The notes under the pieces: generated by a model
The model's input: only the letters and a program-made list of their open reading frames with translations
What the model was told of the DNA's origin: nothing
The model's database searches: none
Shown: one piece after another, positions 4,195 through 35,413 of the stretch
Layout of the letters: every line of letters starts with the position of its first letter
Position numbering within the stretch: the stretch's first letter is position 1
Position numbers and translations under genes: made by a program
Source: a virus
IMG/VR virus record: IMGVR_UViG_3300027028_000014
Location: 1-38,334 of that record
Reading direction: 5' to 3' (one strand)
Length of the DNA stretch: 38,334 bases

Positions 4195-5058
4195 ATGATT
4201 ACCAATGATTACAAAACCCGTGTCAAAAATGGCATACTCGAATTAAAAAACAAGGGGCTATCACAGCCAAAAATCGCTGTACAATTAGGCGCAGGTGATG
4301 CTTATATTTCTAATATTCTTAATGATAAATGGGAACATATATCGGACGAATACTGGCGCAAACTTGGGTCAGGATTACGAATTGAGAATAAGTGGGTAGT
4401 ACAACCAATGACTGCAAATTTCAAAGTCATATTCAATCTGTGTAACGATGCTTGTGACTATAATAAATTCGTAGCACTAACAGCATACACAGGAGCAGGG
4501 AAAACCGAAACGCTGAAGATGTACAAAAAAGCAAATCCGACGACATCAGCATATATATTATGTGAGGAAGATATGACTCGCAAAGATTTCATTCAGGAAA
4601 TTCAGAAAGCTATCGGTGTAGAGTTCTCCGGTAATCTACGCAGCCAGCGCAAACAAATCTGTGATTGGTTGATAGCTCAAAATAAATTCGTGCTACTCTT
4701 CGATGAAGCGGATAAGCTGCGCGACCCGATATTTAGAGTTATTAAAATGATATTCGACTTAACGGAGAATAAAGCAGGAATCTTGATAGCCGGAACTCCG
4801 GTGCTTCTTGAAAACATCAACCGAAAAGCAAAGCGCAATGTGATAGGTTTTCGTGAATTTAAACGTCGCATTATGTCCTACAAGAGCGTAAAAGGCTTCA
4901 AAACACAGTATGAAGATGTCAAAAAAATATGTCGAGCCAACGGCTTAAATGTCGAAAAATACATTAAAAAAGCATTCGATGAATCTACGAATTTTGGGGA
5001 GTTGAAGTATAAAGTACAGATGATGCAAATTGTTCAACAGAAAAATACAGCAGCATGA
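4195..5058 (+). CDS. MuB-like AAA+ ATPase, transposition target selector
   Basis: 287 aa. An N-terminal HTH (about residues 12-45, GLSQPKIAVQLGAGDAYISN) precedes an AAA+ core with Walker A TGAGKT (K103) and Walker B LLFDEAD (D170, E171). Size and domain order match MuB (312 aa) and the Tn7 TnsC-like family. In Mu this protein coats target DNA, recruits the transposase and gives target immunity; the same role is inferred here from motif and neighbour. It follows the transposase by 17 bp and overlaps the next gene by ATGA. Confidence 0.9.
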   Translation: MITNDYKTRVKNGILELKNKGLSQPKIAVQLGAGDAYISNILNDKWEHISDEYWRKLGSGLRIENKWVVQPMTANFKVIFNLCNDACDYNKFVALTAYTGAGKTETLKMYKKANPTTSAYILCEEDMTRKDFIQEIQKAIGVEFSGNLRSQRKQICDWLIAQNKFVLLFDEADKLRDPIFRVIKMIFDLTENKAGILIAGTPVLLENINRKAKRNVIGFREFKRRIMSYKSVKGFKTQYEDVKKICRANGLNVEKYIKKAFDESTNFGELKYKVQMMQIVQQKNTAA

Positions 5059-5450
5059 AAATACAATTAGACCATAGAACATATATAAAACTAATTACAG
5101 GTATTCCTGATGCTTATTACGAATGCCTGATGTTCCAATATGGAAATGACTACATCAATAATACTTCTGGTGGTATGGCAAAAGGAAGGTGTTATGAAAC
5201 CGATAAAAAATACTGGAAGTGGTGGCTGAAAAAGTTCAGTTTTTTTGAGGCTAAATTCGTCGAGTATCTTCAAAAACAAGGAAGGAAACAAAACACCAAA
5301 CGCCACAACAGAGATATGTTTTATGGTTTTTTCGAGCATAATATAGTTAGGTATGGTGTAGTAAATGACAGTTATATCTCATTAGAAAAAACTGTATTGG
5401 AAAAGCGGAAACCTAAAGAAATAACCAAGTACACATCAATGTTAAACTAA
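5055..5450 (+). CDS. Hypothetical early protein
   Basis: 131 aa, basic and aromatic-rich, with a WKWWLKKFSFFEAKF segment in the middle and no recognisable catalytic motif, signal peptide or membrane helix. Its ATG overlaps the stop of the MuB-like gene by four bases, so it is translationally coupled to the transposition genes and expressed with them. I do not recognise a family. Position would suit a replication or host-takeover accessory factor, but nothing in the sequence proves this. Confidence 0.6.
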   Translation: MKIQLDHRTYIKLITGIPDAYYECLMFQYGNDYINNTSGGMAKGRCYETDKKYWKWWLKKFSFFEAKFVEYLQKQGRKQNTKRHNRDMFYGFFEHNIVRYGVVNDSYISLEKTVLEKRKPKEITKYTSMLN

Positions 5451-5461
5451 AACTCGCAACC

Positions 5462-6186: not shown

Positions 6187-6260
<74 letters not shown>

Positions 6261-6299
6261 CGAATGCTACGAATTTAGGTATTCTTAGAAATGATGATG

Positions 6300-6543: not shown

Positions 6544-6903
6544 ATGAAATTAGACAACAAATACATCAGTGCGATATACGCATCGCTGGCAGAGCAGGGA
6601 TTGACACCCGAAAAGGCATCATTGGTTGACCAATACACCGATGGTCGCACTACGTCGGTAAGTGCAATGCTTACAGATGAAGCGGTTGCACTCATCAGCA
6701 AGCTGAATGAAGATAAGCAAGCGATGAGGCGCAAGGTAATTGCGATGATGAAGGAGTTGGGCTATACAGTGGCAACGATGGAAGAGTGGTTATTGGTCTA
6801 TGGAAAGCATAAGAAGAAATTGAACTCGCTTAGGTATAAGGAACTCGTAGAAGTAGTCACGCAGATAGAAAGGATTAAAGCGAAAAAATACAGCAAGGCA
6901 TGA
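6544..6903 (+). CDS. GemA-like (Mu gp16-like) regulatory protein, probable
   Basis: 119 aa. The segment RRKVIAMMKELGY followed by a Trp, then HKKKLNSLRYKELVEVVTQIE resembles the C-terminal half of GemA/gp16 proteins of Mu-like phages, which in Mu influence host gene expression and DNA supercoiling. The N-terminal half (PEKASLVDQYTDGRTTSVSAM) fits the usual family lead-in describing a short helical domain. It sits in the early/middle region as gemA does in Mu. No similarity check was possible, so the family call is tentative. The next gene overlaps its stop (ATGATG). Confidence 0.55.
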   Translation: MKLDNKYISAIYASLAEQGLTPEKASLVDQYTDGRTTSVSAMLTDEAVALISKLNEDKQAMRRKVIAMMKELGYTVATMEEWLLVYGKHKKKLNSLRYKELVEVVTQIERIKAKKYSKA

Positions 6904-7232
6904 TGAAGATAGATGTAAGCATGACCATTGAAGTCGATAGAAACCAGTGCTTCGCTATATATGAGTGTGTGCATCTTCTCATGTTAGATGTCAAGGAAAA
7001 TAATAATGGTGGAAGTGTATTTATAATGATAGACGCTCTGATAACATTGGATTTCAAATTATATAAAATGGTTCATGGTTTCTGGACAAAAGAAAAAAGA
7101 AAACTCACATTGCATCCAAAACAACTTGCTATATTACATGCGGTTTTTTCCCGGATTGACTTCACCATCGAAATATACGAGGCTAATTTTCTGAATCAAT
7201 TATATGGTAAGATAGACCAAAAACTAAAGTGA
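6900..7232 (+). CDS. Hypothetical protein
   Basis: 110 aa, mixed alpha/beta, Met- and aromatic-rich (for example FAIYECVHLLMLDVK), no signal peptide or recognised motif. It overlaps both neighbours by four bases and is thus embedded in a translationally coupled early/middle operon with the GemA-like gene upstream. Function unknown. Confidence 0.55.
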   Translation: MMKIDVSMTIEVDRNQCFAIYECVHLLMLDVKENNNGGSVFIMIDALITLDFKLYKMVHGFWTKEKRKLTLHPKQLAILHAVFSRIDFTIEIYEANFLNQLYGKIDQKLK

Positions 7233-7516
7233 CTAAATCAACACAAATAAAGGTGAAGAAGGCGTATGTCTTTCGACAATACGCCTACAAAGTGGGCTAC
7301 CACAAGTCATTCGTATATCCGGTCATAGCTGACTTACTTAATGTTGAAGAGGATAGATTGTATAAGTATTTCTCCGAAAAAGAACCCAATAATATAGTCG
7401 TGAAAAACTTACAACTCTATAAAAACTTCATAGACTCGGCTCACAAAAAACACACACAAAAAGCTAAAAAAGAAATAAAACTAAACACTCCCCATAAGCA
7501 ACAAACATTATTCTAA
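7229..7516 (+). CDS. Small basic protein, possible DNA-binding middle regulator
   Basis: 95 aa, starting at GTG (7229) that overlaps the previous stop (GTGA). Strongly basic. Residues ~10-50 (FRQYAYKVGYHKSFVYPVIADLLNVEEDRLYKYF) could form a helix-turn-helix-like unit, and the C-terminus is Lys-rich. In Mu the middle regulator Mor lies in a comparable place, but no Mor motif is evident. Function unknown. Confidence 0.5.
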   Translation: MTKSTQIKVKKAYVFRQYAYKVGYHKSFVYPVIADLLNVEEDRLYKYFSEKEPNNIVVKNLQLYKNFIDSAHKKHTQKAKKEIKLNTPHKQQTLF

Positions 7517-8406
7517 TGAGCAGACTGAAAAAATTCATAATGAAGTTGATACCAATTTCCAATAAGGAAGATGGTAGCTTGAATCAAAACCCCAACATAA
7601 GCGGTCATCCGATTAAGTTGGATGATTTCCTTGCACTGCTCAATCAGATGCAGCAACTACTTGGATGGGAACAAAAGAAGTTCTGCCGGAACGGAGAGAG
7701 CGTACTACTCTCAAGCGAAATTGAAATTGATACATTCACAAACACTTATTCACTGCCGGAAGGAACATGCGCTATATACGATTGTAAAATATACGTATTC
7801 GAGAACACTTCTGTGTCTCCACAACCCGGAGAAACGGTGTATGTATGCTTGAACGACACCCCATGCGGTGAACGAACGGTGTACGCATCAGGCGCAGATT
7901 ATCAAGTATACTGCATCCGTCAAGCGAAGTTAGTCAGTGACTCATCTATAAGTGAAGGAACGCCAGGATACATAAAACTTGATGATGTATGCTATCCCAA
8001 TCTTCAAGACTGCGAATGGTTGGATTACACACCGGACTTAGAGTGCCTTGTGCCACAAGATGTACAGAACCCAAATGCCGCACAGCCCGAACTCAGTTTT
8101 TCATACATGATAGACCGTCGATGTAATCTCATGCACATCTGCGGAAAGATTTCAACTTACCAAGTTCTCTTGCTGAAAGCAGACGACAATCCGGCATTCA
8201 TCTACTTACCTCCGAATGTAACCGCACTATGCGGATTCAATCGTGTCATTGTCAATAGAGCTGCACAACAGCCGGAAGGCGTATTGCTTGAGCTTGCGCT
8301 CAATGCAGGTGCGAATCGCTTGATACTGCGTCCGGTTGACCCAACTTTCAGTTGGGCAGGTACTAATATTAATATTGAGTTTTCAGCATCTATTAGAATA
8401 GCATAA
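7516..8406 (+). CDS. Beta-rich, Cys-containing protein, possible virion or surface protein
   Basis: 296 aa. A short helical N-terminus (about 1-55) is followed by a beta-rich body with many Cys (CRNGESVLL, CAIYDCKIYVFEN, CIRQAKL, CEWLDY). The C-terminal ~100 residues (LCGFNRVIVN...LRPVDPTFSW...INIEFSASIRIA) look like a jelly-roll or fibre-head beta sandwich. No signal peptide. It resembles the style of tail-fibre or head-decoration proteins but stands immediately upstream of the lysis genes, overlapping the amidase start. Function is not established. Confidence 0.55.
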   Translation: MSRLKKFIMKLIPISNKEDGSLNQNPNISGHPIKLDDFLALLNQMQQLLGWEQKKFCRNGESVLLSSEIEIDTFTNTYSLPEGTCAIYDCKIYVFENTSVSPQPGETVYVCLNDTPCGERTVYASGADYQVYCIRQAKLVSDSSISEGTPGYIKLDDVCYPNLQDCEWLDYTPDLECLVPQDVQNPNAAQPELSFSYMIDRRCNLMHICGKISTYQVLLLKADDNPAFIYLPPNVTALCGFNRVIVNRAAQQPEGVLLELALNAGANRLILRPVDPTFSWAGTNINIEFSASIRIA

Positions 8407-8945
8407 TGAAAATCACCCAATCACATATCACCAACAGCGCAGCTCGTTCCGGCAAAAAGCTGAAAGCAGCCAAGCGGATAGTCGTTCATTGGACGGGCAA
8501 CCGCGACAAGGGTGCAGGAGCAGTAGCGCATCGTTCTTACTTCAACAAGCCGGGTATCTCTGAAAGTTATCATTACTTGGTAGAGAATGAATTTGTTTTG
8601 GAGATTATTCCTCTTGATGAAATCTCCCATCATAGTGGCAAGTTTTGGGGGCGAGTGCGAGAGGGCATCGAGTGGCAGCGATTTTCAGAACTTGCACCTA
8701 ATCCCAATTATCACAGCATCAGTATTGCAATCTGTGTGAATGTTGATAGTGATTTCGGAAAAACATTTTTCACTAGCGCAAAACTCACGGCTCAATTGCT
8801 CTGTGATTTCGGACTCTCAATAGGTGACATTTTTCGACATTTCGACCTCACAAGAAAGAAGTGTCCGCTTATGTTCGTTGAGCCCGAAGCATGGGCACTA
8901 TTCATTCACGCTGTACTCGACGAGTACGAAAAATTGAACGCATGA
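8406..8945 (+). CDS. Endolysin, N-acetylmuramoyl-L-alanine amidase (Amidase_2)
   Basis: 179 aa, no signal peptide. The Amidase_2/T7-lysozyme zinc ligands are visible: H28 in VVHWTGN, H145 in FRHFDLTRKKCP and C153 in the same motif, with Lys151/152 at the conserved position before the Cys. It should cut the amide bond between N-acetylmuramic acid and the stem peptide during lysis. It lies upstream of a protease and a two-helix holin candidate, all with ATGA or near overlaps, forming the lysis cassette. Because it lacks an export signal it needs a holin to reach the peptidoglycan. Confidence 0.9.
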   Translation: MKITQSHITNSAARSGKKLKAAKRIVVHWTGNRDKGAGAVAHRSYFNKPGISESYHYLVENEFVLEIIPLDEISHHSGKFWGRVREGIEWQRFSELAPNPNYHSISIAICVNVDSDFGKTFFTSAKLTAQLLCDFGLSIGDIFRHFDLTRKKCPLMFVEPEAWALFIHAVLDEYEKLNA

Positions 8946-9883
8946 ATACATTACTCGCTAACTTACTATATACCCTCAACCGCTTCTCCGGCAAGCACTG
9001 GAAGGAGGAAAAATACCTACTTCAATGGTCATTAAGGCACATAGGTATGGAGAAAGTTTGGAAACGATATGGGTATGGGATATTGGAAAAGGAAGTAAGT
9101 GAGCCTATCGCAGTGGTTGACAGAGGTATAGATGTTCGACATCCGGAGTTTGCAGATAGAGTTGTATGGCGTAAAGATTTTCGTGGCGTACACTATGACT
9201 TTGAATTTGATAACCAGTACCCAAGCACACACGGCACTCATGTAGCCGGGATAATCGGTGCAGGTATTGATGGTAATGGGATAATCGGTGTGAGTCCATT
9301 ATGCGAATTTTGCTTTATAGAGGTGCTTGGATTTTCCGATACCGGATTCCAAGAAGTATTCCGAGAAATAAGAATGTCGGAATCCACTGTTGCGAATTTC
9401 TCTGTTGAACTTGGAAAACCAAACAATGGTATGTCAATAGTCGGCAATGAAGAAATTACGAAGACCGCGAAAAAATGCCTAATCATACTTGCTGCCGGAA
9501 ACGATAGTAAGATAATTACCAATGACTATACGACACACGCGGATATACTCCCGGTTGGTGTGTGCAACATCAATGATAAAATCCCCTCATACATGAATAG
9601 AGGTGAACATATTGTATTGGTAGCTCCGTCGCAGACAGGGCTTCCAATGGCAGACTGGAGAGGTTCAAGAGGCAAGAACACAACTGACTACACCCATGAC
9701 GTGGATGGCACGTCATTCGGCGCACCATTGGTCGCAGGTGTCGCCCACTACATACAAGAGGTTGTCGCGCCCGGCATCTCTCCGAAAGATTTGAAAGAAT
9801 TACTTATACAAACGGCTCGTCCTATCGACGAACACCACAGGTGTTTGGACGCTTGGGAAGCCTGTAAAAAAGCAGCAGCATGA
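8942..9883 (+). CDS. Subtilisin-like serine protease (S8 family)
   Basis: 313 aa from the ATG at 8942, which overlaps the amidase stop (ATGA); the longer frame from 8891 is rejected because it would run inside the amidase gene. The complete subtilase triad is present: D60 in VVDRGID, H97 in HGTHVAGI, S258 in DGTSFGAP, with oxyanion Asn N187 in AAGND. No signal peptide and no long propeptide: only ~55 residues precede the catalytic domain. It lies between the endolysin and a holin candidate, so a role in lysis (degrading envelope or surface-layer proteins) is the likeliest inference. A virion-maturation role is less likely because a separate prohead-type protease is encoded at 22065-23117. Confidence 0.9.
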   Translation: MNTLLANLLYTLNRFSGKHWKEEKYLLQWSLRHIGMEKVWKRYGYGILEKEVSEPIAVVDRGIDVRHPEFADRVVWRKDFRGVHYDFEFDNQYPSTHGTHVAGIIGAGIDGNGIIGVSPLCEFCFIEVLGFSDTGFQEVFREIRMSESTVANFSVELGKPNNGMSIVGNEEITKTAKKCLIILAAGNDSKIITNDYTTHADILPVGVCNINDKIPSYMNRGEHIVLVAPSQTGLPMADWRGSRGKNTTDYTHDVDGTSFGAPLVAGVAHYIQEVVAPGISPKDLKELLIQTARPIDEHHRCLDAWEACKKAAA

Positions 9884-10068
9884 AACAATTTAACAGCGCA
9901 TTACTCAAGCTACTATTAGGCTCATGTGTATTGGCATTTGTAGTGCAAGTGATAGGCATGGAAGAAAACCCGGAGATGACCATGTGGGACAACCCTTTCG
10001 TTTGGACGTCGCTTCTTCTTCTTCTTCTTCTTATGTTTCTCTTCATGCGCTCAATCGGTAAGCCATGA
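9880..10068 (+). CDS. Small two-helix membrane protein, holin candidate
   Basis: 62 aa with two hydrophobic helices, about residues 8-27 and 40-57, separated by an acidic turn (MEENPEM), and a basic C-terminus. Size, topology and place next to the endolysin fit a class II holin. The second helix is built on seven CTT codons in a row (10012-10032). It overlaps the protease stop by ATGA. No family signature can be read by eye. Confidence 0.65.
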   Translation: MKQFNSALLKLLLGSCVLAFVVQVIGMEENPEMTMWDNPFVWTSLLLLLLLMFLFMRSIGKP

Positions 10069-10412
10069 TACCAGACCATATACATATCACCACCATGTTC
10101 GGCGGTCAGTACATCAGCCTTTCTACTGAACGCAAAGCCGACATCAGAAACCGATTACTTGAAGTCAATGACGAGATAGGTTTTGAAGTCAAATTTGCGC
10201 CCAAGCTACACGGGCGTCCGGGCAAATGGAAAATTGACTATGTGACCTGTCACATAATCGCTGATGCAGATAATAGTACAATGACCTATGGACGTGGCAG
10301 CAATTGGTATAAAGCCTTTTCAGACTGCCTTAAAAACTATATTGAAAATGAATCAAAGAAGAATCGAAGCACCCAAAAAACCAGAACTGCCACAACACTT
10401 GAACCTGCGTGA
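10065..10412 (+). CDS. Hypothetical protein in the lysis region
   Basis: 115 aa, starting in an ATGATA overlap with the holin candidate. Mixed alpha/beta with a basic Ser/Thr-rich C-terminal tail; no signal peptide or membrane helix. Family not recognised. Its 3' end overlaps the start of the zinc-ribbon ORF by 65 bp. Confidence 0.5.
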   Translation: MIPDHIHITTMFGGQYISLSTERKADIRNRLLEVNDEIGFEVKFAPKLHGRPGKWKIDYVTCHIIADADNSTMTYGRGSNWYKAFSDCLKNYIENESKKNRSTQKTRTATTLEPA

Positions 10413-10584
10413 CTTCTGCCACTTCTGTGGCGCGGAATTGGACTTTGCTGAAGTCTTCAAACAATTGGCAAAGGACAAATCGCAATGTCAATACTGCCAA
10501 GCACTTACAACAGATGAAAAAATCGACGCATACAAAAACTACCATCAAGGTCACAAGCTATCAGTACGTAATATCTCGTATTGA
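10348..10584 (+). CDS. Small zinc-ribbon protein
   Basis: 78 aa from the ATG at 10348; the upstream ATG at 10288 would overlap the previous gene more. Two Cys pairs, CHFCG and CQYC, about 30 residues apart form a plausible Cys4 zinc ribbon. Mu encodes a zinc-finger protein, Com, that activates translation of its DNA-modification gene; this ORF is similar in type only. It overlaps genes on both sides in different frames, so it could be partly over-predicted. Confidence 0.5.
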   Translation: MNQRRIEAPKKPELPQHLNLRDFCHFCGAELDFAEVFKQLAKDKSQCQYCQALTTDEKIDAYKNYHQGHKLSVRNISY

Positions 10585-10822
10585 AATAGCGAGAATCACT
10601 AATTACATCCGAAAGGCAGAATTAGGACATGAATCAATCGAAGTACATGTGTACAGAATACGATTTAACGTAAGTAAAATAGCCTACCGATATAAGGTAG
10701 GACTCCGCATCGGCGACACCGCTTACGAAACTCATGATGAACATTTAGAAAAAACGCCTATTAAGGCTATAAATTTATTAATCGTCCAATATTGGGCAGA
10801 AAAATTACAGGAAAATGAATAA
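10514..10822 (+). CDS. Hypothetical protein
   Basis: 103 aa if started at the ATG at 10514, which overlaps the zinc-ribbon gene by 71 bp. The longer frame from 10409 reads low-complexity, Thr/Lys/Asn-rich sequence that looks like a shadow of the zinc-ribbon gene, so it is not used. The body (ISRIEIARITNYIRKAEL, then IEVHVYRIRFN) is a regular alpha/beta mix. Family unknown. It overlaps the start of the PAP2-like gene by 8 bp. Confidence 0.5.
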   Translation: MKKSTHTKTTIKVTSYQYVISRIEIARITNYIRKAELGHESIEVHVYRIRFNVSKIAYRYKVGLRIGDTAYETHDEHLEKTPIKAINLLIVQYWAEKLQENE

Positions 10823-11669
10823 AAAATTTCAATACAATTATTCCGACCACGAACATCCACCACATATTTGGGAAACAGCAAGAGAAGACCTGCAAGACTG
10901 TCTCATGCCCGAAGACATGGAAGCCATTGACCTCTATTTTGAGGGCAGACGTGAGACAGTAGTCAAGGAATTTGATGCCAAAAAAGAAGTCCAAGAAGTC
11001 ATCGACTATGAACTTGAAGTTGGCGAAGTCTCACAGGATTGGCAACACATGGGTGGCAGAGGCAACGTGCTGCACATCAGTTACAATTACTGCAAGAGTA
11101 AACGAGCGCAAGAAGTTGGAAAATGTGATACCACTAAAATGGTGAAGCTCGACGACAAAATGGGTAAAGAAGAAGTCGCTGCATATGTATCACAAGACAC
11201 ATGGGAAAGAACGATGCTTGAGGGATGGGAAATCATGGCGCATGAAAATAAACTTAATTTCAGTGAGCGCAAACTTCTCTACCCGGCATATACATTATTT
11301 GTGCCGACAATGCTCAACGTCACCTTTGTGGGAAAAGACGCAATTAACCTCGCTCGTCCTGTAACGGTAGCCGGGATTTTAGACATCAAATTCCCAAACC
11401 TTCAGCCAAGTACAGGACACCCAACTTGCGGAAGTGGTCACTCGGCAGTAGGCTTTGCGATGAAGAAGTTTTGGGAAGAAATCGCAAGTAAAGTACTCGG
11501 ACGAGAAATCAAAGTATCCGAAGATTTCAAACAGTGGTGCGAAGAAGTCGGCACTGGACGTTTCTCTCTCCGTCACCATTTCATACGTGACCACGAAGAA
11601 TCAAGACTTGCAACCGAACAATTTTGGGCGATGATATGGAATCATGTTCGGAGTACCTTATTAATGTAG
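10815..11669 (+). CDS. PAP2 / vanadium-haloperoxidase superfamily phosphatase-like protein
   Basis: 284 aa. The three-part signature of this superfamily is present in order: K174-x6-R181-P182 (KDAINLARP), G206-S-G-H209 (GSGHS, where PSGH is usual), and R249-x5-H255-x3-D259 (RFSLRHHFIRD, with Gly before the Arg where Ser is usual). The spacing is correct for a single active site that hydrolyses phosphate esters through a histidine intermediate. No signal peptide or obvious transmembrane helices are visible, so it looks soluble, more like bacterial acid phosphatases or haloperoxidase-type members than lipid phosphatases. It is the last gene of the lysis-region operon and is followed by a strong terminator. 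Substrate is unknown; an envelope lipid-phosphate or nucleotide is possible. Confidence 0.7.
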   Translation: MNKKFQYNYSDHEHPPHIWETAREDLQDCLMPEDMEAIDLYFEGRRETVVKEFDAKKEVQEVIDYELEVGEVSQDWQHMGGRGNVLHISYNYCKSKRAQEVGKCDTTKMVKLDDKMGKEEVAAYVSQDTWERTMLEGWEIMAHENKLNFSERKLLYPAYTLFVPTMLNVTFVGKDAINLARPVTVAGILDIKFPNLQPSTGHPTCGSGHSAVGFAMKKFWEEIASKVLGREIKVSEDFKQWCEEVGTGRFSLRHHFIRDHEESRLATEQFWAMIWNHVRSTLLM

Positions 11670-11698: not shown

Positions 11699-11708
11699 GA
11701 CTAACATA

Positions 11709-11748
11709 AGCAGGGGAGTCCTTAAACTGCTCCCCTTGCTTTTTTTTT
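11709..11748 (+). terminator. Rho-independent terminator of the early/lysis operon
   Basis: AGCAGGGGAG (11709-11718) pairs with CTCCCCTTGCT (11730-11740, one bulged T) around an 11-nt loop and is followed by nine T residues (11740-11748). This is the strongest terminator of the window and marks the end of the operon. Confidence 0.85.
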
Positions 11749-11751
11749 CAC

Positions 11752-22000: not shown

Positions 22001-22064
22001 TACGAAAAGCATATAAAAATGTATGGGAAATTTGCTGCACCTTTGTTTTGAAATTATACAAACA

Positions 22065-23117
22065 ATGCCAGATTTTGTAATTAGTAATGACAAGTTGAAC
22101 CGAAATGGTTATCGGGTGCTGACCTCCGGAATACGCTTAGAAAAGTTCAGAGCAAATCCGGTTATGACCTATAACCATAACCTCCCATCAAGTTGGGGTG
22201 ACATCGGTAGCCGCGAACAAATTCCTCCCGGACGATGGGAGAATTTGCGAATCAATGAAAATAATGAGTTGGTTGGTACGGTGGTTTTCAATATGAAAAC
22301 AGACTTGGGTGTGAAACTTTCAGAAGCGGTTGAGGATGGTTTCATTAATGCTTGTTCGATTGGGATACAAGTAATTACACGTTCAGAAGATGAATCTGTT
22401 GTACTTCCCGGTCAGCGTTATGAGACAGTGACGGAAAGCGAGTTGTTGGAAATTGCTATTGTGGTGATACCCGGTAATGCTGATGCTGTCCGGCTGCATC
22501 ACGAAGGTAGCTATCTGAACCTTTCGCACGGTGATGAAAATCTGTCGCATGTATTGCCGCTTATTGGCGAAAACAAAAAAGAATTGAAAATGACAATTGA
22601 CAAGTCAATTTTGGACTCATTGAATTTAGGTGCTGATGCAACTGAGTTACAAGTTCAGACGGCTATTGATAAGCTGAAAGCCGATGCCAATAATGAGCGC
22701 AAAAAGCGTGAGGCGTTGGAGTTGAAATTCGAGGAGCAAGAAACAGCACAACTTGGGAAGGATGCAGAAGCTATGGTGCAAGGTCACATTGACCGCAACG
22801 CATTGACTGCTGACCGTAAGGATTTCTACCTGAGCATAGCAAAGGAAAGCTCTGAGAAGTTGGATATGGTCGATGCGGAGTTGAAGAAAATTGAGGGCTA
22901 TGAGCGTCCGACCAATCAACTCGCGGCAGCAGGAGCAACCGCAGTTAAGGCAGGTAAGCCTGACACGAAAACGGTAGCCGATGCAAAGGAGTATTACCTT
23001 AACATGGATACAGGCAAGTTAGGCGAGTTGCGTCAGACTAACCCTGCGCGATATGCAGAGTTGGAAGCAGCAGCAGAATTGCACCCTGAACTTTTGGACT
23101 ATAAAAAAGAAGAGTAA
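22065..23117 (+). CDS. Prohead protease fused to scaffold (Mu gpI/Z-like)
   Basis: 350 aa from the ATG at 22065; the in-frame ATG at 22023 is less likely because the protein start MPDFVISNDKLNRNGYR fits the family. The N-terminal ~150 residues resemble the caudoviral serine prohead protease, with catalytic-type His in VMTYNHN and Ser in NACSIGIQV, and the family signature ELLEIAIVVIPGNADA. The C-terminal ~170 residues are Ala/Glu/Lys-rich and helical, as expected for a capsid scaffold removed during maturation. It begins the plus-strand late operon. Confidence 0.8.
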   Translation: MPDFVISNDKLNRNGYRVLTSGIRLEKFRANPVMTYNHNLPSSWGDIGSREQIPPGRWENLRINENNELVGTVVFNMKTDLGVKLSEAVEDGFINACSIGIQVITRSEDESVVLPGQRYETVTESELLEIAIVVIPGNADAVRLHHEGSYLNLSHGDENLSHVLPLIGENKKELKMTIDKSILDSLNLGADATELQVQTAIDKLKADANNERKKREALELKFEEQETAQLGKDAEAMVQGHIDRNALTADRKDFYLSIAKESSEKLDMVDAELKKIEGYERPTNQLAAAGATAVKAGKPDTKTVADAKEYYLNMDTGKLGELRQTNPARYAELEAAAELHPELLDYKKEE

Positions 23118-23398
23118 TGTCATTTTGGGATTTCATAGGCGATAATTGGCAAGGCTTGGCTTTGGGCTTACCGGGAGGTTACTTTGGGTCATGGCTTGTT
23201 GATGTTAATATGCAATTTTCCCATGAAATCACTCAAATGATAATATCCCTTTTAGGCACGATAATCACAGCGTCAACAGCAGCAGCGAGTGGTGTAGTAG
23301 CGACTTACTATACCAAGCAATTTTTCAATCGAAAAAAGGAAGAAGATGACGATGATAAGAAGTCTATCGAAGCCCATGACTCCAGTACCTCCGGTTAA
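23117..23398 (+). CDS. Small membrane protein in the head module
   Basis: 93 aa, starting in a TAATG overlap with the protease stop. A hydrophobic N-terminus (about 10-28) and a clear membrane helix at about 40-65 (MIISLLGTIITASTAAASG) are followed by a charged Lys/Glu/Asp tail. A membrane protein between scaffold and capsid genes is unusual; it could be a second holin, or a lysis-timing or envelope protein. Its 3' end overlaps the capsid frame. Confidence 0.6.
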   Translation: MSFWDFIGDNWQGLALGLPGGYFGSWLVDVNMQFSHEITQMIISLLGTIITASTAAASGVVATYYTKQFFNRKKEEDDDDKKSIEAHDSSTSG

Positions 23399-24761: not shown

Positions 24762-26048
24762 ATGAAGATTATGAAAATATTTGTAAAAAAGCTGCTGTTT
24801 ACCACGCTGTTGGTATTGATGAGCGTGTTGGGCATAGCCCAATGCGACTCATTCGACTGTGATAATGTAGTTGGGCGCGATGTAGAGGTCAAACATGCCT
24901 CCGCTCCTGCCGGGACAACCATAACAGCAATACAAGGCACGACTAATTTAGCATCCGGCGCATTTACGCATCCGCAGACGGTGACGATTCCATGTGAGGG
25001 AGCTACGACGATTACATTGAGCTACCCGGATGGACGACCTTATTGGGTGTGGAACGCAGAAAGCTGTATTGCAGAAAATCCGGTAGTGCCGGGCGAATAC
25101 TGTGTTACTTTATCGCTCTCCGGTATAGATGGTCATGTGCTCAAAGATGGCGGTTTGGTCACTCCGATACCACGCGAGGACTTGTCTTGTGAAGCTGATT
25201 TGTGTCCACCACCGCCTACTTGCATCTGCGACTTTTTTCTCGCCGACAGCAAGGGCGCACGAATCGACACCGTAGCATGTGGTGACGAGTTCATCTATTT
25301 TTCAGCAAGTGCGCCGGAAGGGTGTGACGCGCCTGTGGTAGATGGAACTACGATATATTATGAAGGCGAGCCGATTGGTGACTATCCGATACCTCTCGCA
25401 GAGGTCGAACCGGGTACATACACCGTGTCGCTTAATTCAGCTGTGACAAGCTGCGACAATGAGGCGCAAGTGACGTTCACGATACCCACTTGCAGCTCAC
25501 CCTGCTGCACCGCCATACACCTCGTCGATGGCGAGGGCAATGTCGTAGCCGATGCGGAAAACCCCACAGTGTCGGACAGCTATTGCACCACACCTATATA
25601 TGTGCAGTGCGTGGACAATCCTGAATTAGAAATCGTCTCCGGCGATGTCAATGGCACGCCGCTTATCGGTAATCAAGTGCCGGAAGGCATTACTTCAAGT
25701 GGTACTGTGACGGCTTCTTTTGGGGATGCGTGTGAGGTTGCTAGTGAGAGTTTTGGTTTTCCGAGTTGTGATGACGGCAATGGCGACCCGAATTGGTCAA
25801 TTGACGCAGATGGTAGCGTGACGTGGGTTGGACTTGTGGCGTGCACTTTTCTTGTAGAGGCATGTAATGCACCTGCTCAACATACAGTTGTGTTCCTTTC
25901 TGGCGGTGCAGAAGTAGGCTCGACAATCGCGCTCGATGCCAGCAGTAATCCTATTACTGCTACACTTTGGAATAGATGCGCTGCTTGGTCAGTTAATCCG
26001 GCAGATGTACCGGAAAATTTTGACAAGATGGAATTTAAGTGTTATTAG
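24762..26048 (+). CDS. Exported Cys-rich repeat-domain protein
   Basis: 428 aa. Residues 1-26 form a clear signal peptide (KIFVKKLLFTTLLVLMSVLG) ending in IAQ before Cys, a Bacteroidetes-style signal peptidase I site. The mature protein is beta-rich and Cys-rich, with several Ig-like segments. Its N-terminal ~150 residues are homologous to those of the 582-aa protein two genes downstream (both begin QC, then xRD, then TVTIPC and PDG). It lies between the capsid and tail genes. A virion protein would not normally be exported, so it is probably displayed in the periplasm or outside the cell. Function unknown. Confidence 0.7.
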   Translation: MKIMKIFVKKLLFTTLLVLMSVLGIAQCDSFDCDNVVGRDVEVKHASAPAGTTITAIQGTTNLASGAFTHPQTVTIPCEGATTITLSYPDGRPYWVWNAESCIAENPVVPGEYCVTLSLSGIDGHVLKDGGLVTPIPREDLSCEADLCPPPPTCICDFFLADSKGARIDTVACGDEFIYFSASAPEGCDAPVVDGTTIYYEGEPIGDYPIPLAEVEPGTYTVSLNSAVTSCDNEAQVTFTIPTCSSPCCTAIHLVDGEGNVVADAENPTVSDSYCTTPIYVQCVDNPELEIVSGDVNGTPLIGNQVPEGITSSGTVTASFGDACEVASESFGFPSCDDGNGDPNWSIDADGSVTWVGLVACTFLVEACNAPAQHTVVFLSGGAEVGSTIALDASSNPITATLWNRCAAWSVNPADVPENFDKMEFKCY

Positions 26049-26117
26049 AATCAGTTGTATTGAATGGAAATGCTCTCACTAATGACGTTGTGCCTGACTT
26101 ACATTTAATTATAAATT

Positions 26118-26591
26118 ATGAAAAATATTATTCTTTTCGCGCTTTTCGCGCTATCAATTTTCGTCACCTCATGTGAGGTGACACCGGGATTATCGACTGA
26201 CTTCGATGATGTCCCCGAACTCAATAATCCACGCGGCGGCACATCGCCTATTACGCCTTTTAAGGCGGAAGTTATTATCGAGAACAATCAAGCTCGTGTG
26301 GCAGGGGTTCACTATGTGGTTCAGACGAATAATGATGTCGATTCCTATATCGTCAATAATGATTCATTGCTATTCGTGACCAGTCCATTGGCATTCACGT
26401 ATTTTATGCGGGATGTGAAGTGGAAAGTATGGCATGAAGGACAAGCCGATACGCTGACGACTTCCGGCTATCAATCTACATTCGTCCCTAATGGGGTCGA
26501 TGACATCCGTATTCAATGCAAAGGAACGAAAGGCACAATTGCGAATCCGCAGCAAGTGACATCGCTGATGTCGTTTATGCTGATTCAATAA
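26118..26591 (+). CDS. Putative lipoprotein
   Basis: 157 aa. A hydrophobic signal (ILFALFALSIFV) leads to the lipobox VTSC, so Cys19 should be lipidated. The mature part is beta-rich with Asn/Asp/Thr, no transmembrane segment. It is encoded between the two exported Cys-rich proteins. Surface lipoproteins from prophages often block superinfection by masking receptors; here that is only a possibility. No family recognised. Confidence 0.7.
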   Translation: MKNIILFALFALSIFVTSCEVTPGLSTDFDDVPELNNPRGGTSPITPFKAEVIIENNQARVAGVHYVVQTNNDVDSYIVNNDSLLFVTSPLAFTYFMRDVKWKVWHEGQADTLTTSGYQSTFVPNGVDDIRIQCKGTKGTIANPQQVTSLMSFMLIQ

Positions 26592-26601
26592 TTTTTTTAA
26601 T

Positions 26602-26619
26602 TGACGACTAAAGTCGTCA
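26602..26619 (+). other. Short hairpin between the lipoprotein and vWA genes
   Basis: TGACGAC (26602-26608) pairs with GTCGTCA (26613-26619) around TAAA, just after a T-rich stretch at 26591-26598 and 19 bp before the next ATG. Weak stem; may be a minor regulatory element. Confidence 0.4.
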
Positions 26620-26637
26620 GTACATTACAGTTTCATT

Positions 26638-28386
26638 ATGAAATTATTATCATTATTATTATTAGTTTTGTGCAACTTAGTTGCATTTGGTCAATGCGCG
26701 GATTTTCCGTGTGCCGATGAAGTGGTTGCTCGTGACCGCGATTTCGTGGGCTATCCGGTAGGGAGTCAAGTAGTGGCTTCGTTGGATGGTACGGTCTTCG
26801 ATTCGGGGGCTTTCGCACCGCCGATGTACACGGTGACGATTCCGTGTGCCGGGTTCGTGGAGGTGACAGTGACGAAGCCTGACGGTTCTTCTGACTACTA
26901 CGCCTACTATGCCTGTGTAGCACCCAATCCAAGCGGTGACCCCTGCGCTCCTGACTACTGCGTCACTATATCACCGACGAGTTTCAAGCAGAATCACACC
27001 CTTTGGATTGGCGGCGTTGTACCCATTGACTCCACCAAGTTGTGGTGCAATGATGGTAATGATATATGTATCGCTGCCGTAGAGTGCTGCGATGACCCGG
27101 ACGCCTGTAATGACGGCGCGGTTGGAGTTCCTTGTTTTTCTGCGGATGCGGACAATTGCGAAGATTGCAATGGTGAAAGCATCTGCCCTCCTGGAACGAC
27201 GTGCAACGGTGAGAGCGACTGCGGTTGCTTCGACCCGGACGCATGTAATAGTGGGGAGCTTGGAGTTCCTTGTTTTTCTGCGGATGCGGACAATTGCGAA
27301 GATTGCAATGGTGAAAGCATCTGCCCTCCTGGAACGGAATGTGATGGCGCAGGTAATTGCGATGTCGTATGTGACGACTGTCAAGTAGAAGTCGAAGGCG
27401 AATGTGTGCCGATAGATTTTTCTAACGACATAGCTATATCATGTATATTCAATGAAGATGAATTTCAGTTCGAGTTCCTTGTAGAGTCAAGCCAAGAACT
27501 TGAAATATCGTGGGAATATGGCTTGGATTCCGGCACTGGAAACAATGCAACTATCGCCGCGTATAACGACATCAACATCGCGATTATTTTCGACAATTCC
27601 GGTTCATCAAGAAATTATCAGGAAGCCCAACAAGCTGCCATAATCAATTTCATTAATGATGTGAATGATGGTAATGTCTTTTCGGAGTGCGATAGTGTGA
27701 GTATCGCCATTATACCGCATGGCATAGGCCCAGGCGGTCATTGCGTCACGCCACTATCATCCGACCCCTGCGTGAGCGATCCGGTAGCGGATTGTATCTG
27801 CTACTCGCAGTTGGTTTCAGTGACCGATAATTATGCGGACATCATATCGTTCGTGAATGGTATTACTGTCAGCCAACCCAACTCATGCAGTTGCCTGAAT
27901 GGCGAAAATAATGATGTCGGCGCTATAGGTGTGGCTGACGCGGTATTGAGCGGCACTGAAAACCCATATCTAATATACATCACAGACTATACTCCTTTCC
28001 AACAGCTCGGTACTAATGACTGTCCGGGCGGTTTGTGCTGCGGAATTATAGAGTCTCAATTGTCCGCATTGAATACTACATATAATGTAATTGGCGTAGG
28101 ACTTGGCAATCCAATATCCGGTTTGGCCTGTGCGAATTCGTATGGCACGAACATAGCATGGTTGAACTCTGCCGTCAATGACGACCCGACAGACGGCACG
28201 AACGTCATCCAAGTACCCGACCCGACCAGTGACTTCGACCTCACGCCGCTGGTCTCGAACCTCGAAAGTGAAGACATTATTTTCACCATAGAAATATGCG
28301 GAAATACCTATACATACGCCGGAGTCATTCCCTCGTGTTCGACTGAATGCCCGGACATTAACCTATCAGAAACTGAAGGCGAATGA
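26638..28386 (+). CDS. Exported protein with Cys-rich repeats and a vWA domain
   Basis: 582 aa. A signal peptide (LLSLLLLVLCNLVAF) ends in GQ before Cys. The N-terminal ~140 residues are paralogous to the 428-aa protein. Residues ~148-239 hold two tandem 46-residue Cys-rich repeats (DACN, VPCFSADADNCEDC, SICPPGT) resembling EGF-like or TIL modules. A vWA domain follows from about 310, with MIDAS residues D319-x-S321-x-S323 in DNSGSS and a later Asp in YITD near 450. vWA domains bind protein ligands through a metal ion. Such a protein fits adhesion or surface interaction, not capsid assembly. Stop overlaps the next gene (ATGA). Confidence 0.75.
   Translation: MKLLSLLLLVLCNLVAFGQCADFPCADEVVARDRDFVGYPVGSQVVASLDGTVFDSGAFAPPMYTVTIPCAGFVEVTVTKPDGSSDYYAYYACVAPNPSGDPCAPDYCVTISPTSFKQNHTLWIGGVVPIDSTKLWCNDGNDICIAAVECCDDPDACNDGAVGVPCFSADADNCEDCNGESICPPGTTCNGESDCGCFDPDACNSGELGVPCFSADADNCEDCNGESICPPGTECDGAGNCDVVCDDCQVEVEGECVPIDFSNDIAISCIFNEDEFQFEFLVESSQELEISWEYGLDSGTGNNATIAAYNDINIAIIFDNSGSSRNYQEAQQAAIINFINDVNDGNVFSECDSVSIAIIPHGIGPGGHCVTPLSSDPCVSDPVADCICYSQLVSVTDNYADIISFVNGITVSQPNSCSCLNGENNDVGAIGVADAVLSGTENPYLIYITDYTPFQQLGTNDCPGGLCCGIIESQLSALNTTYNVIGVGLGNPISGLACANSYGTNIAWLNSAVNDDPTDGTNVIQVPDPTSDFDLTPLVSNLESEDIIFTIEICGNTYTYAGVIPSCSTECPDINLSETEGE
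27122..27336 (+). repeat. Exact 77-bp direct repeat, offset 138 bp
   Basis: Bases 27122-27198 and 27260-27336 are identical and encode the same part of two tandem 46-residue Cys-rich repeats. The bases before them (GACCCGGACGC) are also near identical. Recent in-frame tandem duplication. Confidence 0.85.
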
Positions 28387-28577
28387 AAAAAATAATTGAA
28401 CACTTAGGTTTGCCGGAAACGGCTAAGGAAGCTGATGCTATTAAGGCTATTAAGGCTATTGAAGCGGCTCAAAGTGCGGCTGAAACGGTATTGAATGCCG
28501 ATGAATATAAGGCAAAATTGCAGACTCAAGAGGTCAAGATTTTGCAACTTCAAAAACGAATCAATCAATTGACATGA
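28383..28577 (+). CDS. Small coiled-coil protein
   Basis: 64 aa, overlapping the preceding stop by ATGA. Contains a repeat of Ile-Lys-Ala (AIKAIKAIEAAQSAA) and a helical C-terminus (YKAKLQTQEVKILQLQKRIN). Likely a short coiled coil. No family recognised. It is followed after 4-bp overlap by a small membrane protein, then the tail sheath gene. Confidence 0.5.
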   Translation: MKKIIEHLGLPETAKEADAIKAIKAIEAAQSAAETVLNADEYKAKLQTQEVKILQLQKRINQLT

Positions 28578-28750
28578 GTGTAGAGCAAGCAAAGAACTGT
28601 ATCACGCAAAACATGGTGACGACTGTACTTGGTACATTTGTTATTGGTGCTGCTGTGGTTTCTGTATTCACACAAGGAGCTTCTTGGGATGTTGTGGTGA
28701 TGGTTATTGCCGGAGCGATAGGGCTTTTTGCGAAAGATGGTGATAAATGA
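28574..28750 (+). CDS. 58-aa two-helix membrane protein
   Basis: ATG at 28574 overlaps the previous stop (ATGA) and its own stop at 28748-28750 overlaps the sheath start (ATGA), so it is an intact coupled gene. Two hydrophobic helices, about residues 15-32 (TTVLGTFVIGAAVVSVF) and 37-52 (WDVVVMVIAGAIGLFA), give a hairpin like class II/III holins. A second holin or antiholin within the tail operon is possible; no family signature is visible. Confidence 0.6.
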   Translation: MSVEQAKNCITQNMVTTVLGTFVIGAAVVSVFTQGASWDVVVMVIAGAIGLFAKDGDK

Positions 28751-34672: not shown

Positions 34673-35413
34673 ATGATATTGAGGAGACTTGGAAGGAAGA
34701 CCAAGATTGCAGGAAAGATACAAGCGTATTTTCCTGACCATTCCATGTACATTGAGCCATTTTTTGGCGCAGGTGGAATGTTTTTTAATAAGGAGCGAAT
34801 TCCTTATAACATATTAAATGATTACGATGATAATGTCGTAAATCTGTTTAATGTTTTGATGACTCAGGCGGATGAGTTTCGGGCATTACTTAAAATCATG
34901 CCTGTTCATTCTGATTTGTTCAAGACTTGGAAGCATGTTGATGAAACTGATGCGATTCGGATTGCCGTTAGATTTCTGTTTTACTCGAATTTCGGGTTTA
35001 TGGGGAAAGATACGACAATGACGCTTGGCAGGAGCAATACGAAGCGGATAGCTCTTGGTCGAATTGATGAGACGATTGATGCGCTGATGGGCTGTCAATT
35101 CTCGAATTATGATTTTAGAGAATTGTTCAAAAAAATCAGTTTCAAAAATCAACGTGAGCGTGATAAGGCTTTTATCTATTGTGATCCACCATATTTGGGT
35201 ACTGCGGATAATTATAGCAACTCATTTAGTTACCAGGACACGTCCGATTTGTTTGTTGTAATGATGTCACTTCGGATACGTTTTGCGATTTCAGAGTTTG
35301 CGAATCCGAAGGTTTTGGAGCTTGCCGAAGAGCATGGTTTGAACGTTGTAGAAATTGGAGAGCGTCAGGCACTCAAGGCAAGGAGGACAGAAATATTGAT
35401 AATGAATTATTAA
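34673..35413 (+). CDS. DNA adenine N6-methyltransferase (Dam/D12 type)
   Basis: 246 aa. AdoMet-binding motif I is EPFFGAGG (about 28-35) and catalytic motif IV is D171-P-P-Y174 (in YCDPPYLG), in the order of the Dam/D12 class. Length is slightly below the usual ~270. It should methylate adenine in a short target, probably to protect phage DNA from restriction. It is inserted within the baseplate genes, 28 bp after the hub gene and directly overlapping the next start (TAATG), so it looks like an acquired gene that has become part of the operon. Confidence 0.9.
   Translation: MILRRLGRKTKIAGKIQAYFPDHSMYIEPFFGAGGMFFNKERIPYNILNDYDDNVVNLFNVLMTQADEFRALLKIMPVHSDLFKTWKHVDETDAIRIAVRFLFYSNFGFMGKDTTMTLGRSNTKRIALGRIDETIDALMGCQFSNYDFRELFKKISFKNQRERDKAFIYCDPPYLGTADNYSNSFSYQDTSDLFVVMMSLRIRFAISEFANPKVLELAEEHGLNVVEIGERQALKARRTEILIMNY

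Follow-up and report, generated by a model that had tools for sequence, protein, structure and literature searches.

A subtilisin-type protease gene coupled to an amidase gene in a Mu-like phage: a possible accessory lysis protease

Among the closest known systems are the holin-endolysin-spanin lysis cassettes of tailed phages, that of Mu included (PMC9239132). Like these, the locus reported here, from the 38,334-base virus record IMGVR_UViG_3300027028_000014 (the whole of which was analysed and is called the window), encodes a predicted endolysin without signal peptide in a coupled operon together with a small membrane protein, but it has no recognised spanin and contains, in addition, genes for a subtilisin-type protease (subtilase) and a PAP2-like protein. 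Mu itself uses a signal-arrest-release endolysin with gp25 and no holin (PMC9239132). A multi-enzyme lysis strategy had been put forward as new in a sequence-only reading of this DNA; as a concept, extra enzymes aimed at the envelope are already known from lysis cassettes, as with the mycobacteriophage esterase LysB, which performs the outer-layer step (PMC5707550). LysB is lipolytic, acts on the mycobacterial outer layer and was characterised by experiment, whereas the enzyme considered here is a protease with a putative role in lysis. A survey published in 2025 divides viral lytic proteins into six types, among them endolysin, holin, spanin, pE and Pei; the words "subtilisin" and "phosphatase" are absent from the survey, and such a lysis protease is not among its types (PMC12596118). 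In the open-licence literature searched, no report of a subtilisin or subtilase in a lysis cassette was found, nor any paper bringing together PAP2, prophage, holin and phosphatase.

The reading preferred here, with a probability of roughly 0.4, is that the amidase acts as the endolysin and the subtilase as an accessory lysis protease, possibly in place of the missing spanin, a lysis role of the PAP2-like protein being unsupported. The features on which it bears are the following:

8406..8945, + strand: Amidase_2 zinc N-acetylmuramoyl-L-alanine amidase, 179 amino acids, predicted endolysin (PF01510, 1.4e-14; PHROG endolysin families, to 7e-26)
8942..9883, + strand: signal-less subtilisin-type serine protease, 313 amino acids (PF00082, Peptidase_S8, 2.6e-27)
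9880..10068, + strand: holin candidate, 62 amino acids, two hydrophobic helices (hydropathy; ATGA overlaps on both sides)
10815..11669, + strand: soluble PAP2/haloperoxidase-superfamily-like protein, 284 amino acids (PF01569, 7e-4; three motifs in order)
11708..11749, + strand: intrinsic terminator closing the operon after the PAP2-like gene (hairpin and U-run; -17.3 kcal/mol, z -4.0 for the hairpin)

The catalytic residues and motifs listed in the sequence-only reading are all present, namely amidase H28/H145/C153, subtilase D60/H97/S258 and the KX6RP, GSGH and RX5HX3D motifs of the PAP2-like protein. Of the three enzyme families that it proposed, amidase and subtilase are secure, while the PAP2 match lies below the Pfam cut-off. 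Its statement that protease and phosphatase lack signal peptides agrees with hydropathy analysis, which revealed no N-terminal hydrophobic stretch in either protein, nor in the amidase. The latter, the sole endolysin found in the window, has the two histidines and one cysteine that serve as zinc ligands in Amidase_2 enzymes, and its family predicts an endolysin with high confidence. The subtilase shows the Asp-His-Ser order of family S8, with HGTH and GTS motifs, and its catalytic triad is invariant, together with the oxyanion residue N187, in an alignment of 36 sequences. It has no I9 pro-domain, and about 27 amino acids precede the mature-type N-terminus. An AlphaFold model built with 35 viral subtilases (predicted local distance difference test score, pLDDT, 79.8; predicted template modelling score, 0.83) has subtilisins as its best PDB matches, with template modelling scores of about 0.7–0.8.

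Start and stop codons overlap along 8406-11669 (TAATG, ATGA, ATGA, ATGA, then an overlap of 8 nucleotides), which confirms translational coupling. The claim of one coupled operon is borne out by these overlaps, though not in its extent: the overlapping gene run spans about 6544-11669, the amidase-to-PAP2 genes being its distal end, and 8406-11669 holds seven genes rather than four. The genes at 8406-11669 are best explained as the far end of a middle operon that a Mu-like phage transcribes as one unit. The preferred reading draws on the family and placement of the amidase, the complete catalytic residues and confident subtilisin fold of the protease, the lack of signal peptides on both enzymes, a head protease encoded by a separate gene, the ATGA coupling of amidase, protease and membrane protein, the end-of-operon terminator, the existence of independent holin/subtilase/amidase cassettes, and the occurrence of spanin-like proteins beside the endolysins of relatives as against none credible in the window.

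In the proposed mechanism, the inner membrane would be opened by a small membrane protein, for which the 62-amino-acid product is the simplest choice. The signal-less amidase, for which family evidence is strong, would then escape and cut peptidoglycan, and the signal-less subtilase, translationally coupled at the amidase stop codon, would escape likewise. The protease could next degrade envelope proteins, such as outer-membrane or peptidoglycan-bound lipoproteins, and would thus carry out the outer-membrane step in a phage without a recognisable spanin. Judging from the gene neighbourhood, the subtilase may act in lysis, and the two-part version of the scheme, with amidase and protease, is plausible.

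Two scans fetched 158 viral subtilase loci, of which 115 encode signal-less subtilases shorter than 420 amino acids; these form 40 clusters at 60% identity, four of which are located in lysis modules (L151; L165 with L193-L195 and L197; L196; L198). In L151 (5251-7325) a Phage_holin_4_1 gene is followed by subtilase and Amidase_2 genes, L165 (4918-6945) and L193 have the order holin-amidase-subtilase, in L197 (3748-6444) amidase and holin flank the subtilase, and L198 (4066-6247) has subtilase-amidase-holin, while L194-L196 have holins close to the subtilase. Within the L165 lineage the subtilase is constant, whereas the adjoining amidase is of the Amidase_3 or an Amidase_2-like type and the holin type varies; because the subtilase stays while its partners change, a functional link is suggested for this lineage. 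The IMG/VR cassettes L151, L165/L193, L197 and L198 resemble the window in that their subtilase lacks a signal peptide and is encoded no more than one or two genes away from holin and amidase, but they belong to unrelated phages with different amidase types, and no PAP2-like gene was noticed in them. They seem to be undescribed in the open-licence literature searched.

In the window, no credible ORF (open reading frame) for a unimolecular spanin, with lipobox and transmembrane helix, was detected by a scan that gave matches in several relatives; two-component i-/o-spanin pairs were sought by hydropathy and lipobox scan only. Unimolecular-spanin-like proteins with an N-terminal lipobox and a C-terminal helix are found in Bacteroidetes-type Mu-like phages (L075, 3976-4467; L021, 4937-5440; L102, 15377-15925; L023, 4385-4894; L085, 16188-16754), and two of them, when scanned, had no PHROG match. 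L075 and L021 contain a conventional cassette of small membrane proteins, endolysin and unimolecular-spanin-like protein between the capsid and presumed tail sheath genes. L023 and L085 have an amidase gene followed by one for a unimolecular-spanin-like protein, and in L072, L076 and L100 the amidase gene is near a tail-completion gene. In L093, the prophage nearest to the window in gene order, a spanin-like sequence was read by eye inside the middle-region ORF 4316-5455 and was not flagged by the automatic scan. The position where relatives keep the lysis cassette corresponds to 24762-28386 of the window, which harbors three genes with signal peptides or lipobox (428, 157 and 582 amino acids), the 582-amino-acid product resembling von Willebrand A-type proteins by eye; prophage L094 also has large secreted proteins there.

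Several observations weigh against a lysis role of the subtilase. The frequency of 4 out of 40 clusters is about that expected by chance for a random phage gene (our estimate, for a phage with some sixty genes of which two or three clustered ones serve lysis), and the neighbour families most often matched are HNH endonucleases, terminase and others, not lysis families; this tally covers 25 families, with no scanned background set, and is a rough test. A general tie of viral subtilases to lysis genes was rejected, their neighbours being mostly of non-lysis families, and in the named Bacillus and Moorella phages the subtilase gene is away from annotated lysis genes. The sequence-only reading had named a protease or phosphatase consistently away from lysis genes in relatives among the results that would refute it; most viral subtilases are indeed found elsewhere, with four clusters in lysis modules. 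Since spanins are difficult to recognise, the lack of one counts for little. Intracellular subtilisins act in the cytoplasm and so need no holin. In the phylogenetic tree, the window subtilase stands at the end of a very long branch (about four changes per site) and has no resolved neighbour; it is too divergent for a function to be transferred from relatives by homology. The proposal of the protease as a lysis enzyme is supported by the coupling, the complete active site, the unrelated cassettes and the lack of a spanin, and weakened by the location of most viral subtilases.

The most serious competitor, a real possibility though short of even odds, is a cytoplasmic phage protease of the intracellular-subtilisin type, which would break down proteins of host or phage while the cell is taken over and would be in the same middle operon as the endolysin by coincidence or for reasons of timing. 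The missing signal peptide fits this explanation, as do the phmmer search, in which the best solved relatives include intracellular subtilisins, the location among non-lysis genes of the majority of viral relatives, including every named one checked, and the unrelated small genes in the same operon. The intracellular Bacillus subtilisins and the phage subtilases of SP-15, Goe8, FADO and MTATph1 have the same fold and catalytic residues and likewise no signal peptide or I9 pro-domain. The window subtilase is ~25% identical to them and is separated by its very long branch; its gene adjoins lysis genes, which is not the case in those named phages that were checked. The LIPY/LxPY N-terminal inhibitory motif of classical intracellular subtilisins, which occurs in 12 of the 40 viral clusters, is missing from it. 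This lack, direct translational coupling to the amidase and membrane protein, and the recurrence of subtilases inside holin/amidase cassettes of a few unrelated viruses speak against a cytoplasmic role.

That the two added genes are cargo (morons) acquired by this phage alone, with functions in lysogeny or against competing phages and none in lysis, is improbable. Their distribution would suit it: family searches found subtilase and PAP2 genes in none of about 24 related virus records, contrary to the expectation that the combination characterises such phages, and profiles built here revealed neither gene among the ORFs of 1.35 megabases of relatives, a partly overlapping set of sequence. The family search with PF01510 missed the window's own amidase, so that negatives of such searches are lower bounds, whereas the subtilase and PAP2 searches did recover the window itself. 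No close relatives of either protein were found in viral contigs, and this part of the genome varies between relatives. Morons would be expected as an independent unit with its own promoter and terminator, whereas these genes are inside a tightly overlapping operon.

Packaging of the subtilase in virions, or a part in their maturation as an entry or structural-protein-processing enzyme, is likewise improbable. The gene at 7516-8406, directly upstream of the amidase, looks of a surface or tail-fibre type by eye, and some viral subtilases are located between virion structural genes (L200, 3815-5618; L201, 4324-5295), e.g., directly upstream of a prohead-protease-looking gene. The recognised structural genes of the window are, however, in other operons (13152-37780), no relative has a subtilase beside structural genes, and a role in head maturation was rejected because of a separate enzyme:

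22023..23117, + strand: prohead protease of family S78, separate from the subtilase (PF04586, 1.6e-5, above cut-off; PHROG head maturation protease)

As for the holin, the 62-amino-acid protein has the size, the two helices and the position, one gene away from the amidase, of a holin, and a putative holin is a plausible assignment. It belongs to no described holin family and has no Pfam or PHROG match. The two-helix products of Mu middle genes, gp19 and gp20, are not holins (PMC9239132), which calls for caution and counts against the first step of the mechanism. There are two other candidates:

23117..23398, + strand: 93-amino-acid membrane protein, alternative holin candidate (hydropathy; adjoins the capsid gene; weakly matching gene at the corresponding position of the relative L003)
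28574..28750, + strand: 58-amino-acid two-helix membrane protein, alternative holin candidate (hydropathy; before the presumed tail sheath gene; L003 counterpart)

The 58-amino-acid protein matches a PHROG of unknown function (1.4e-4). The holin named in the sequence-only reading has the right build and place and is, with these rivals and no family match, a guess.

The PAP2-like protein scores 19.8 bits in Pfam, below the curated cut-off of 27.2 (E-value of 7.6e-6 in a single-record search). The K-x6-RP, GSGH and R-x5-H-x3-D motifs occur in order; relative to KX6RP - PSGH - SRX5HX3D, glycine replaces the proline of the second motif and the serine that precedes the arginine of the third. None of 100,000 shuffled versions of the protein with the same composition contained the complete set. 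When profiles were compared, the soluble haloperoxidase-like class aligned slightly better (E-value of 2.3e-4 versus 6.7e-3 for membrane PAP2 phosphatases, both weak). In order and spacing the three motifs, with these two substitutions, resemble those of soluble PAP2/vanadium haloperoxidase-like phosphoesterases, from which the 284-amino-acid window protein differs in scoring below the family cut-off and in having no close relative found. A tblastn search in phages gave no match at E-values up to 1, solved structures gave none, and 299 genomes gave weak matches only. A weak PAP2 match of 40 positions inside the terminase region of G022 was judged spurious, and a single-sequence structure model (pLDDT 37) was not used. 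Because the family match is weak, the gene is three genes away and no related case was found, a role as lysis enzyme is not supported, and the three-chemistry lysis proposed earlier lacks support. The protein is best read as a co-expressed, soluble operon partner with a predicted phosphoesterase fold.

The remaining genes of the run are:

6544..8406, + strand: proximal run with genes of 119, 110, 95 and 296 amino acids, overlapping end to end (6544-6903, 6900-7232, 7229-7516, 7516-8406)
10065..10412, + strand: ORF for a 115-amino-acid protein of no assigned family
10348..10584, + strand: 78-amino-acid zinc-ribbon-like ORF, CxxC ... CxxC (translation; weak double-zinc-ribbon match, 0.017)
10409..10822, + strand: ORF of up to 137 amino acids, overlapping the PAP2-like gene by 8 nucleotides

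The 119- and 296-amino-acid products have weak counterparts in L093 (3994-4410 and 6068-6871), a prophage in a Saprospiraceae metagenome-assembled genome. The last three ORFs lie between the genes of the 62-amino-acid membrane protein and the PAP2-like protein. The 115-amino-acid product has no Pfam or PHROG match. The zinc-ribbon ORF, absent from the earlier reading, is nested in another frame and overlaps its neighbours; the true start of the ORF ending at 10822 probably lies later, since its first part overlaps the zinc-ribbon ORF.

The window contains genes for a MuA-type transposase (phrog_310, 1.6e-46) followed by a MuB-type ATPase (phrog_296, 4.1e-39), as well as repressor, terminase, portal and tail genes, and it is therefore a Mu-like transposable phage. 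A tRNA-Met gene (anticodon CAT, 6187-6261) separates the early genes from the middle operon, and a DNA methyltransferase gene (34673-35413; phrog_56, 4.5e-45) is located amid the tail genes. The host is probably of the Saprospiraceae group, because the terminase relatives in bacterial genomes sit in Saprospiraceae or Bacteroidetes assemblies. The phage's core relatives are in Saprospiraceae genomes.

The wider proposal, that in two or more unrelated phage lineages a subtilisin released by the holin serves as a third enzyme of lysis, and that in this phage of a Gram-negative host it replaces the spanin by cleaving outer-membrane tethers, is at present unlikely. The phosphatase part adds little at present. 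If the subtilase does act in lysis, phages that lack a recognised spanin would have a proteolytic route for rupturing the outer membrane. As subtilases recur in the holin/amidase cassettes of unrelated viruses, the question can be tested in other systems besides this one.

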